From Cytobacillus sp. NCCP-133 (lineage in GTDB: Bacteria > Bacillota > Bacilli > Bacillales > Cytobacillaceae): a stretch of 64,000 nucleotides of DNA. Each line of letters begins with the position of its first letter. Position 1 is the stretch's first letter. Shown one piece after another: positions 20,619 through 24,005 of the stretch. Under the pieces are notes generated by a model that made no database searches, was not told where the DNA came from, and worked only from the letters and a program-made list of their open reading frames with translations. The position numbers and the translations under genes are program-made. The stretch is from positions 1 through 64,000 of the forward strand of contig NZ_BRVM01000013.1 of the NCBI RefSeq assembly GCF_026011715.1, given 5' to 3'.

Positions 20619-22022
20619 TTAGATAGCGGCAAATGAATGAATGATGACAACCTCTTCTTCTTCTGTTACTGTCCGCAAATCAACTAAGATTTCCTCCTTT
20701 TGGATTCTGACAATAACAGCAGGAGTAAATCCTGTTCTTAACTGCCTTCCTACATACTCAGCGGAATATTTCTTATGTTTTAAAACTACAATCCATGAAG
20801 GAAGCTGCACATCTGGCATGGTTCCGCCGCCTACCTGTCCGACACTTTCTTTCATGGACATATCATAATTTTTAGAGGCTGATTCCAATTTACGAAGGAA
20901 ACTTTCCGTTCTCTGTTTCAGTTCTTTGCCAGCCGTCAAAACATCCCGGACTACAGGTATGTTTTTCACGCCATCTTCCCCTTTTAAGTAGTCAATAAGA
21001 GTACCTTCAAGAGCTGCAAGCGTCATTTTATCAACACGAAGCACTCTGGCTAGCTGATGTTTTTTCAGCTTATCAATCAATTCCTTTTTGCCGGCAATAA
21101 TACCGGCCTGCGGTCCGCCCAACAGCTTATCTCCGCTGAATGAAACAAGATCTGCTCCCATTTCAATAACCTTTCTCACAACAGGCTCGTCGCCGATTCC
21201 TTTACTTGCAAAATCAAAAAGCGCTCCGCTGCCAAGGTCTTCATAAAAAATGACATCCCGCTCTCTAGATAGCGATGCAAGTTCCTGTGTACCAACTTCT
21301 TTTGTAAATCCAATAATTTTAAAATTACTTGTATGCACTTTTAAAATCATCGCAGTTTTATCATTTATTGCTTTTTCATAATCTGATATATGGGTCTTAT
21401 TTGTGGTTCCCACTTCAGCAAGCCTTGCCCCGCTCTCTGCCATAATGCTCGACACCCTAAATGATCCCCCGATTTCTACAAGCTGTCCTCTCGAGACGAT
21501 CACTTCCCGATCAGTTGCCAAAGCTTTTAATATAAAATAAACTGCAGCAGCGTTGTTATTAACAACCATGGCGGCTTCTGCATCAGCCAGTTCTTTGATA
21601 AGCCCTTCTACATGACTATGCCTCGAACCGCGCTCTCCCTCACTCAACTTATACTCCAAATTGGAATAATTCATGGCAGTTTCAAGCATATGGGCACAAG
21701 CCCTGCTGCTTAATCTTGCTCGCCCAAGATTGGTATGCAGGATGGTTCCTGTAGCATTGATAACTCTTTTTAGCGTGTACCCATAACGGCTGCGGATTTT
21801 TTCCTCCGCCAAATGAAAGAGCTTGTCTGTAAATTCCTTCGTACCAGGAGAGTCACCTTCCCACTGTCCATCCAGGATAGTCTGCCTAATGCCTGCAATA
21901 ATTTCCTTTAATATGTTTGTTGTATGTATGAAATCAAGTCCATTCACAGCCATCAGCTCATTGAATTGCTCCTCTTTTTGCAATTCATGAACGGGCGGTA
22001 TTTCTCTAAGTTTATTTTTCAA
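20619..22022 (-). CDS. selA: L-seryl-tRNA(Sec) selenium transferase SelA
   Basis: A PLP enzyme that converts seryl-tRNA(Sec) to selenocysteyl-tRNA(Sec) using selenophosphate. At 467 residues it has the usual length (E. coli SelA 463). Family motifs: RVINATGTILHTNLGRA, SNLEYKLSEGERGSRHSHVE, AMVVNNNAAAVYF, YEDLGSGAL and the PLP-lysine SFSGDKLLGGPQAG. TTG 22022 (MKNKLREIPPV) is chosen because GGAGGG lies just upstream; 40 further codons overlap the cotM promoter. Unlike most selA genes it has no selB, selD or tRNA-Sec neighbour in this window. It sits between sspP and cotM, which are adjacent in B. subtilis. Confidence 0.96.
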   Translation of the reverse strand: MKNKLREIPPVHELQKEEQFNELMAVNGLDFIHTTNILKEIIAGIRQTILDGQWEGDSPGTKEFTDKLFHLAEEKIRSRYGYTLKRVINATGTILHTNLGRARLSSRACAHMLETAMNYSNLEYKLSEGERGSRHSHVEGLIKELADAEAAMVVNNNAAAVYFILKALATDREVIVSRGQLVEIGGSFRVSSIMAESGARLAEVGTTNKTHISDYEKAINDKTAMILKVHTSNFKIIGFTKEVGTQELASLSRERDVIFYEDLGSGALFDFASKGIGDEPVVRKVIEMGADLVSFSGDKLLGGPQAGIIAGKKELIDKLKKHQLARVLRVDKMTLAALEGTLIDYLKGEDGVKNIPVVRDVLTAGKELKQRTESFLRKLESASKNYDMSMKESVGQVGGGTMPDVQLPSWIVVLKHKKYSAEYVGRQLRTGFTPAVIVRIQKEEILVDLRTVTEEEEVVIIHSFAAI

Positions 22023-22118
22023 AGCAATCCCTCCAGCTCTAGCCTGATTATTATACCACTTTTCACTTATTAGCAAGGAATGAATACTATAGAAAGAACA
22101 AAGCAAGGGGGTAATGAA

Positions 22119-22517
22119 GTGGACAAGAAAGAAGATAAGCACCCATTTAATTTAAGTGAAATGGAGGAATGGATGGAAAAGTTTTTCCTTGATCCTCATA
22201 CATCCTATATGGATCAGTTTACCTTTCGGATTGATCTATTTGAAACAGAGACAGAAATAATTGTTGAAGCGCTATTAATCGGCTGTGTACCAAAAGATGT
22301 AACCGTTTCCTTGAAGGATAATAAGGTGATTATAAAAGCTCAAAAAAAAGAACTGCCCACAGAAAATAGTGGCCAACCCTGCATAAGAAAGGTAGAACTT
22401 CCTTTTCCAGTCATTGACAAAAAGGTAGGGGCCGCCTTTTCAAACGGAATATTGGAGATTTTTATAGCCAAGAATGAAGCTGGGCCTGGCTGTAATAGAT
22501 ATATAACGATCCCTTGA
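22119..22517 (+). CDS. cotM: CotM-like Hsp20/alpha-crystallin spore coat protein
   Basis: 132 residues with an alpha-crystallin domain (FRIDLFETETEIIVEALLIG ... GAAFSNGILEIFI). The N-terminal NLSEMEEWMEKFFLDP resembles CotM of B. subtilis, an outer coat protein made in the mother cell under sigma-K. The locus also matches: cotM neighbours sspP in B. subtilis. GTG 22119 follows AAGGGGG. It could instead be a general Hsp20, but the locus favours CotM. Confidence 0.8.
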   Translation: MDKKEDKHPFNLSEMEEWMEKFFLDPHTSYMDQFTFRIDLFETETEIIVEALLIGCVPKDVTVSLKDNKVIIKAQKKELPTENSGQPCIRKVELPFPVIDKKVGAAFSNGILEIFIAKNEAGPGCNRYITIP

Positions 22518-22594
22518 TTAAAACTGAGTTAGAGTATGCCTGATTTCTGCTCATAAGTTTACATAATATTAATATCGTTCACTTGCCTATTAAT

Positions 22595-22621
22595 AAACCT
22601 TCCCCTATATGGAGAAGGTTT
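22595..22621. terminator. bidirectional terminator cotM / SelW-like gene
   Basis: AAACCTTC-CCCTATATGGA-GAAGGTTT between convergent genes. Confidence 0.7.
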
Positions 22622-22625
22622 CAAA

Positions 22626-22862
22626 TTATTCTTGCATTTTTTCAATAATATCCTTGGACTTCGGAAAAACGCCCGTATTCAATTTGGAATAAAGCTTTTC
22701 TCCATTAACCGTCAATTCAAACGCTCCGCCCGAACTCGGAATAAGCTCCATTTTTAAGATATCGGAACGGAAATGTGTAAATAGTTCTTCCGCGAAACTC
22801 GCGGCTTTTGGTGCATAGTTTCACATCATGCAAAATTCAATGGTAACTTCGTAAGGTTTCAT
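22626..22862 (-). CDS. SelW/Rdx family selenoprotein (TGA = Sec14)
   Basis: A 78-codon gene with one internal TGA (22821-22823) and TAA at 22626. Read with Sec it gives MKPYEVTIEFCMMU, then NYAPKAASFAEELFTHF, and continues IPSSGGAFELTVNGEKLYSK and FPKSKDIIEKMQE. This is a full-length SelW/SelT/SelH (Rdx) thioredoxin-like redox protein with CxxU in place of CxxC and the following N-Y-x-P-[RK]-A motif. GGGGGAG lies five bases before the ATG. Coding potential continues unchanged after the TGA, a SECIS-like hairpin follows, and selA lies 0.6 kb away. Sec insertion still needs experimental proof. Confidence 0.9.
22790..22804 (-). promoter_or_regulatory. candidate bacterial SECIS element (SelW-like gene)
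   Basis: Minus strand CCGCGA-GUU-UCGCGG: a perfect 6-bp stem with G as the first loop base, the loop starting 22 nt after the UGA. It fits the bSECIS rule and lies inside the reading frame. Confidence 0.75.
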
Positions 22863-23027
22863 ACTAACTCCCCCAAATGTAATATTCTAGAATGTAAATA
22901 TACTCACATTTTAGTACAATCTCTAGCTGACTGCAAATTGTTCCTCCCTTCTTGCCATTAACTAAATTCGGGCAGGCGATTTTGCCGCTGTCTGGATGGA
23001 TTGACATTTCAATTTCAAAATATAAAG

Positions 23028-23050
23028 AGGACAGCTGTATCGGCTGTCCT
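23028..23050 (-). terminator. terminator of tdh
   Basis: AGGACAGC-CGATACA-GCTGTCCT followed by CTTTATATTTT on the minus strand. Confidence 0.75.
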
Positions 23051-23063
23051 TTTGGATTTATGT

Positions 23064-24005
23064 TCACTTTGTTTTTAGCTTATCAAGCATATCTGCTGTC
23101 ATTTTTGCAAGATCAAATTCTGCTTTAAAGCCCCACTCTTCTTTTGCTGCTGTGGCATCTATCGAATTTGGCCAGCTGTCAGCAATAGCCTGGCGTACAG
23201 GATCGACATCGTAGGAGAGTTCAAATCCTGGGATGTGCTTTCGGATTTCAGCAGCAATCTGCTCCGGTTCAAAACTCATCGCAGTAACGTTAAAAGAATT
23301 GCGGTGACTTAATTTATCAGCGTCCGCTTCCATTAAATCTACAATTGCATTTAATGCGTCAGGCATATACATCATATCCATGTAAGTGCCTTTATCGATA
23401 TAGGACGTATAACGGCCATTTTTAATGGCTTCGTAATAAATCTCAACGGCATAATCCGTTGTTCCTCCACCAGGAGGAGTAACATAGGAGATTAAGCCTG
23501 GAAAACGTAAACCTCTCGTATCAACACCAAACTTATGGTAGTAATAATCAGATAACAATTCGCCTGCCACTTTATTTACACCGTACATTGTAGTTGGCCT
23601 GTGGATTGTATCCTGCGGCGTATTGTCCTTTGGCGTAGAAGGTCCAAAAGCGCCAATGGAGCTTGGCGTAAAGAATTGAGCTTTGCATTCTCTAGCTGTT
23701 TCCAATGCGTTCAGGAGGCCGCCCATATTCAAATTCCATGCAAATACAGGATTGGCCTCAGCGGTAGCAGACAAAAGCGCGGCCATATGAATAACTGTAT
23801 CAATATCATATTTTTTCGCCGTTTCTAACATTGTTTTTGCATCGGTTACGTCAACCATTTCAAAAGGTCCAGAGTGAGCTGCTTCAGATTCATTTTTTCT
23901 GATATCCGTTGCGATTACATTATCTGTCCCATATATGTCTCTTAATTTTAAGGTGAGTTCGGAGCCGATTTGTCCTAATGCACCTGTAATCATTATTCGT
24001 TTCAT
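23064..24005 (-). CDS. tdh: L-threonine 3-dehydrogenase, SDR/epimerase type
   Basis: 313 residues of the extended SDR (NAD-dependent epimerase) family. It has the Rossmann motif [12 protein letters not shown], catalytic [10 protein letters not shown] and YGVNKVAGE (YxxxK), and the threonine dehydrogenase-like [21 protein letters not shown] segment. The reaction is L-threonine + NAD+ to 2-amino-3-oxobutyrate. Its neighbour kbl, 157 bp upstream, uses that product, which strongly supports the assignment over UDP-sugar epimerase. Confidence 0.92.

Follow-up and report, generated by a model that had tools for sequence, protein, structure and literature searches.

The locus considered here raises the question of whether an in-frame TGA in a short gene of Cytobacillus sp. 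NCCP-133 is decoded as selenocysteine (Sec). A sequence-only reading of this DNA had proposed as much, describing a SelW-type selenoprotein with a CxxU motif and a fitting SECIS hairpin. The window analysed is a stretch of 64,000 nucleotides on contig C13, part of a 4.3-Mb assembly whose completeness is rated at 99.96%. The frame in question (22626..22862) belongs to the minus strand, a detail missing from the earlier reading, and the particulars that it listed hold there: 78 codons followed by a TAA stop, a ribosome-binding site, and a sole TGA at codon 14 (22821..22823, minus strand), the predicted Sec codon. When translated from 22862 to 22626 with TGA as U, the product opens with MKPYEVTIEF, continues with CMMUNYAPKA and ends with IIEKMQE; in full it is MKPYEVTIEFCMM-U-NYAPKAASFAEELFTHFRSDILKMELIPSSGGAFELTVNGEKLYSKLNTGVFPKSKDIIEKMQE. 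A Shine-Dalgarno-like GGGGGAG (22868..22874, minus strand) lies 5 nt before the ATG, and 159 of the 223 distinct sequences that we assembled have a GGAG, GAGG or AGGA core ahead of an in-frame selW start. With the standard code the longest ORF in this frame is a 41-residue segment 3' of the UGA, in line with the expectation that gene callers would miss or truncate the gene.

When the TGA is read through, the product is recognized as a thioredoxin-like Rdx protein with the motif C11-M-M-U14, both by the Pfam Rdx model (PF10262; 78 bits, cut-off 22.6) and by NCBIfam TIGR02174 (63.4 bits, cut-off 34.2). The epithet "unannotatable", which the gene had been given, is therefore too strong, as existing family models match it once the TGA is passed. 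The equivalog model NF041051 (SelTWH_Campy), which by its name we assign to the epsilonproteobacterial SelW, returns 77.6 bits against a cut-off of 88, and for this reason we do not file the protein under it. An AlphaFold2 model built from 19 aligned sequences (mean pLDDT 89.4) shows a strand at residues 4-11 and a helix at 17-30, with the CxxU motif closing the first strand ahead of the first helix. Positions 11 and 14 are invariant in these 19 sequences, in which Sec is shown as C and of which one is a genuine Cys form. Foldseek (E ≤0.001) recovered 21 matches, all of them chains of six bacterial SelW-type entries with the same fold (2fa8, which is Atu0228, 2obk, 2oka, 3dex, 2ojl and 2p0g; query TM 0.82-0.93). 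Among these Cys-type structures, the best matches, the SelW-related 2fa8 and 2obk (query TM 0.85-0.91), have Cys in the place of Sec: the second Cys of their CxxC aligns with Sec14, the outcome of an alignment that had been suggested as a check. Mouse SelW (2npb) is more remote, with a weak sequence match (E 0.17), a TM of 0.72 and 20% identity. In eukaryotes, mouse SelW included, the SECIS element resides in the 3' UTR.

The genome also carries the machinery that such decoding would call for, another check that had been proposed, with a lack of selB, selD and selC named as a sign against the reading. The selenocysteine synthase gene selA (20619..22022, minus strand) matches TIGR00474 with 560 bits (cut-off 267.9; the piece searched was 20622-22028). 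Its TTG start was inferred by eye from the sequence, and on this basis selA begins about 0.6 kb from the selW stop, the distance given earlier. A tRNA-Sec with the anticodon TCA was detected by ARAGORN and by Rfam RF01852 (58.3 bits against 47), selB lies on the window's own contig (86207-88066; 388.6 bits, cut-off 242.25), and selD is found on contig C18 (422.3 bits, cut-off 125). As judged from these matches, the predicted Sec-decoding set of selA, selB, selC (anticodon UCA) and selD is complete. The families searched for further selenoproteins in this genome were SelW, SelD and FdhA. SelD itself contains an in-frame TGA (...SSKGGUGCKIG...), whose U presumably occupies the catalytic position. 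None of the nine matches to the formate dehydrogenase model TIGR01591 has an in-frame TGA; comparison by eye puts a Cys in each of the two best at the site occupied by U in the Sec-type enzyme of a relative (G032). A formate dehydrogenase homologue in this genome (contig C11, 71099-73150) has an in-frame TAA and is possibly a pseudogene.

The hairpin held to direct Sec insertion lies at 22790..22804 on the minus strand, as described earlier: a perfect 6-bp stem (CCGCGA/UCGCGG) closes a GUU loop that begins 22 nt past the UGA. We compared it with the constraints on bacterial SECIS elements that PMC13188914 sets out in the legend to its Fig. 2. Those constraints specify an apical loop of 3-9 nt on an upper stem of 4-16 bp (here 3 nt and 6 bp), a G at loop position 1 or 2 that is mostly followed by G or U (here GUU, with G at position 1), 16-37 nt from the UGA to the apical loop (here 22 nt) and a minimum free energy of at most -7.5 kcal/mol (here -9.3 kcal/mol over 49 nt). 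Ten Rfam matches up to E 10 were obtained across 22400-23100, all below their gathering scores and none to a SECIS family. Taken as a single sequence the hairpin is not beyond chance (z -1.59; 15 of 200 shuffles as good), a signal too weak to decide the matter, and we therefore turned to covariation across relatives.

For this purpose selW sequences were pooled and made unique by DNA, giving 223 that include the window's own, 222 with TGA and one with TGT; the pair counts use the 222 and leave the Cys form out. The first loop position is G in all 222 and the second is T in 213 and G in nine. Four of the six stem pairs are largely set by the protein sequence, and the remaining two connect third codon positions. 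The pair 20/32 (codons 20 and 24) occurs as CG in 166 sequences, TA in 48 and TG in eight, and the pair 23/29 (codons 21 and 23) as GC in 207, AT in ten, CG in four and TA in one, so that each is paired in 222 of 222. The corresponding shuffle means are 186.1 and 202.9, and in neither case did any of 2000 shuffles reach the observed count. When 1,770 combinations of variable third positions, separated by 6 nt or more, were tested in 221 sequences, these two came out first and second, whether scored by the paired fraction or by the excess. In six of the 222, one of the four remaining pairs is absent. An earlier pass over 173 distinct sequences had used 172, excluding one with N, and counted pairs on 167 after setting aside the Cys form and four members of a distant subfamily.

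Shared descent was taken into account with a SelA tree of 193 of the 223 loci, namely those with a SelA piece of at least 350 residues, the TGA form and no N in the first 60 nt. This tree requires at least 25 changes at pair 20/32, for which 13 independent contrasts on supported branches gave on average 8.3 concordant, 4.7 neutral and none opposite, with a median p of 0.008. For pair 23/29 there is a single supported contrast, which proves nothing by itself, and an earlier, smaller tree of 79 loci yielded four contrasts and no significance. The six stem pairs contain 37 G-U cells against one A-C cell, with 24 of the 37 falling at pair 24/28, which is constrained by the protein; at pair 20/32 there are eight U-G cells and no A-C or C-A. 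This excess indicates that the hairpin pairs better as coding-strand RNA. Comparison of relatives thus indicates that the hairpin is beyond chance and is selected as RNA. The sole Cys-encoding selW (L044, from genome G032) has TGT at the site, and its pairs 20/32 and 23/29 read A-G and C-T. Exactly the two synonymous pairs are broken and the protein-fixed ones persist, a pattern that, for this one sequence, points to relaxed constraint after the loss of Sec.

The gene is widespread among the relatives. SelW was found in 160 of the 193 genomes of the window's GTDB family, with TGA in 159 and TGT in G032; among the 159, one (G182) has its frame cut by a run of N and one (G065) has a distant copy only. 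A draw from the order gave SelW in 165 of 397 genomes (E ≤1e-6), 16 of the 165 being of the same family, and TGA is present in every SelW row among the matches listed. Differences between 213 relatives and the window 3' of the TGA, with the hairpin excluded, number 2975, 1313 and 6645 at the first, second and third codon positions; the count leaves out the Cys form, sequences with N and those of at most 58% identity to the window. This third-position bias implies that the frame downstream of the TGA is under coding constraint. A distant SelW subfamily with the motif C-T-A-U also has TGA (L062, L064, L065 and L066); it accompanies the main form in G019, G022 and G024 and stands alone in G065.

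SelB is present in 170 of the 193 family genomes, although in Bacillus subtilis, included as a control, no SelB exceeds the cut-off. Neither these figures nor the order-wide count of SelW agree with the earlier statement that Bacillaceae seldom use selenocysteine, and the idea of the bacilli as a group in which it is rare needs correcting. When genomes that are not among the matches listed are placed by elimination, 157 of the 193 have both SelB and SelW, 13 SelB alone, three SelW alone and 20 neither. A Sec-type formate dehydrogenase (E ≤1e-230) occurs in 129 of the 193, and among the matches listed each such FdhA has one TGA, with one having a TAG as well. The 170 SelB genomes divide into 117 with SelW and Sec-type FdhA, 40 with SelW only, ten with FdhA only and three with neither. 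In these last three (G008, G050 and G098) SelB is present and both SelW and Sec-type FdhA are below the thresholds used. Two fragmented assemblies without SelB (G006 and G145) have a Sec-type FdhA, and G032, the carrier of the Cys-type SelW, keeps both SelB and a Sec-type FdhA. SelD was detected in 180 of the 193 genomes. It lacks the in-frame TGA in at least seven genomes without detected SelB (G066, G166, G167, G169, G175, G176 and G192), and the other rows listed have TGA.

We had considered that SelW might be the principal user of Sec throughout the family, given that seven of ten sampled genomes with SelW-TGA lacked a Sec-type FdhA; this was dropped, and the claim was cut to 40 genomes, because the full search gave Sec-type FdhA in 129 of 193. 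At the threshold used, 43 of the 170 SelB genomes are without Sec-type FdhA, and 40 of these 43 have SelW. A tentative and rather doubtful picture would have the Bacillales SelW as a near-obligate selenoprotein resident in the Sec locus, which in a sizeable minority of lineages, the window's among them, might be the main reason for keeping the Sec machinery.

The neighborhood of selW was compared in two sets of loci, 173 from the family genomes and named records (some of other families) and 50 from families of the order other than the window's; as the flanks mostly extend 3 kb, neighbors counted here represent lower bounds. In 214 of the 223 loci (165 and 49) selA lies 3' of selW and shares its strand, selD is upstream and divergent in 143 of 173 and 40 of 50, and selB is further upstream in 12 of 173 and 29 of 50. 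An hsp20-like gene in the opposite orientation lies downstream of selW in 101 of 173 and 5 of 50. In the window this gene (22080..22517, plus strand; PF00011, E 8.3e-08) is situated between selW and selA, and an Hsp20-like match between the two in the same orientation as in the window is seen in 106 of the 223 loci. In the window's genome selD sits on a different contig, and upstream of selW there are two genes that we take to be tdh and kbl, the first of which is an epimerase-family match. The recurrent place beside selD and selA suggests, as a guess, some function in the homeostasis of selenium or of redox state.

A hairpin scan places a terminator-like hairpin directly 3' of the selW stop (22597..22619, minus strand), and similar hairpins follow selW within 250 nt in 187 of the 214 loci with selA. 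Where hsp20 is absent they occur in 35 of 44 loci of the order set and 57 of 64 of the first set (4 and 6 when the gaps were shuffled once), and where hsp20 is present in 3 of 5 and 92 of 101 (1 and 13 when shuffled once). Given this hairpin, selW may be a separate transcript or may feed selA by read-through.

Several other explanations of these data have to be weighed. If the TGA were a plain stop and the locus a decaying pseudogene, a standard gene caller would see an in-frame remnant of 41 residues only, as it would here; the interrupted frame of G182 could be cited too, except that the run of N marks an assembly gap, as could a distant-subfamily row (G019, L065) that has a TAA as well, which falls ahead of the start codon. 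Decay, however, is at odds with a TGA held in 222 of 223 sequences across many genera and with change after it that favors third codon positions. The sequence-only reading had itself named a decayed downstream frame in TGA-bearing relatives as a sign against it, and the frame is kept instead; with a conserved TGA and a constrained downstream frame we reject the pseudogene as vanishingly improbable. It is only slightly less improbable that the UGA is read as another amino acid (e.g. Trp or Cys) without SelB. Cys does occur at the site in one relative, and three genomes have SelW without SelB, all of them incomplete or fragmented assemblies (two with 66% completeness each and one with 94%, the latter split into about 720 contigs). 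Against this, SelW with TGA tracks SelB. In the 33 family genomes without a SelW hit, of which 20 are without SelB, nothing reaches the TIGR02174 cut-off, and there are at least three weak matches with E 0.03-0.04. The selection on the hairpin as RNA, and its decay in the Cys form, also speak against such a recoding. The hairpin might alternatively be a transcription terminator or a product of chance and no SECIS at all, and a pattern scan does list it as terminator-like, albeit on the opposite strand, with the unremarkable z-score of the single sequence pointing the same way. This too is very unlikely in view of the covariation, a loop that opens with G and then U or G in all 222 TGA sequences, and the excess of G-U over A-C cells, both overall and at pair 20/32, that favors RNA of the coding strand.

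A further proposal grants the selenoprotein and makes selW in addition a selenium-sensing leader, in which SelB on the SECIS, or a stop at the UGA, would alter terminator read-through into selA. The same-strand selA 3' of selW in 214 of 223 loci suits it, as do the terminator-like hairpins in the loci without hsp20, well above their shuffled counterparts, and a paper on E. coli reportedly concerns, by its title, SECIS RNA in translational control. On the other hand, the opposite-strand hsp20 separates selW from selA in the window and in 106 of 223 loci, and a plain terminator predicts the same hairpins, which are present in 95 of the 106 hsp20 loci too. We consider such a leader unlikely, if less so than the preceding alternatives.

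Thus we conclude that selW almost certainly encodes a SelW-like selenoprotein of the Rdx family, with its UGA decoded as predicted Sec; the sequence-only reading of the gene is borne out in the family scores, SECIS constraints and covariation. The evidence behind this is comparative: the frame, the family, the position of the CxxU, the presence of selA, selB, selC and selD, the conservation of the TGA and the selection on the hairpin can all be read from sequence. Several points weigh in the other direction, namely that the window's hairpin is not significant against shuffles, that six of 222 sequences lack one pair, that the Cys form is one sequence, that SelW is missing in 13 SelB genomes and that the NF041051 cut-off is missed. 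By analogy with the established bacterial pathway, SelB carrying Sec-tRNA(UCA) would bind the hairpin and insert Sec at UGA 14, allowing the ribosome to complete the 78-residue protein. The fold and motif suggest that the product is a small thioredoxin-like thiol/selenol oxidoreductase with Cys11 and Sec14 as its redox pair, and these two residues might form a reversible selenenylsulfide.

SelW-like proteins are an already established family of bacterial selenoproteins. In the parts available, the 2006 survey PMC1794560 reports ten SelW-like proteins, counts three selenoproteins for Bacillales that it does not name there, and states that, among organisms that contain Sec, Cys homologues of the Sec form of SelW are absent or extremely scarce; its additional files hold all 285 sequences of the survey. 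In the accessible portions of later sources, ocean metagenomes yielded 427 Sec and 56 Cys forms of SelW-like proteins (PMC2398784), a 2016 study whose abstract covers more than 5200 organisms found SelW-like proteins in 35 (PMC5029168), and a 2026 review lists the bacterial SelW-like proteins under "Predicted with high confidence" (PMC13188914). The window's protein resembles these in belonging to the same Pfam family (PF10262), in its CxxU and in a SECIS predicted inside the coding region (PMC1794560, PMC2398784, PMC13188914); in contrast to what is seen here, the published counts are low (ten proteins in 2006, 35 organisms in PMC5029168), and the accessible text describes no spread in Bacillales, no place in a sel locus and no hairpin covariation. 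A close precedent is that of the Epsilonproteobacteria (PMC4607533), in which SelW genes were missed by annotation and the SECIS has 5 or 6 bp, an invariant loop G and support from covariance, there over several selenoprotein families. The available parts of PMC9312934 and PMC5322559 contained nothing on SelW in bacilli. Our literature search, to which most subscription papers were out of reach, returned no description of SelW in Bacillaceae, and in the literature searched we did not find its spread in Bacillales, its residence in the sel locus there or a Cys form with a decayed hairpin.

The prediction of this bacterial selenoprotein becomes much firmer because the hairpin covaries across many genera and because a natural Cys form exists in which it is broken. 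Ordinary gene finders would cut selW short, and many bacilli keep it next to the genes for making Sec. Carriers with names, for which 80 of 202 relatives in a search of named records were kept, include Cytobacillus, Mesobacillus, Neobacillus, Robertmurraya, Sutcliffiella, Evansella, Aquibacillus, Tenuibacillus and Bacillus methanolicus (L195); bacilli such as the last are hosts in which the role of a bacterial SelW could be tested. Three further records, which bear the names Sporosarcina globispora, Pseudomonas sp. and Paenibacillus sp. (L187, L188 and L189), have selW on contigs of Cytobacillus-type genomes, and their names are probably wrong.
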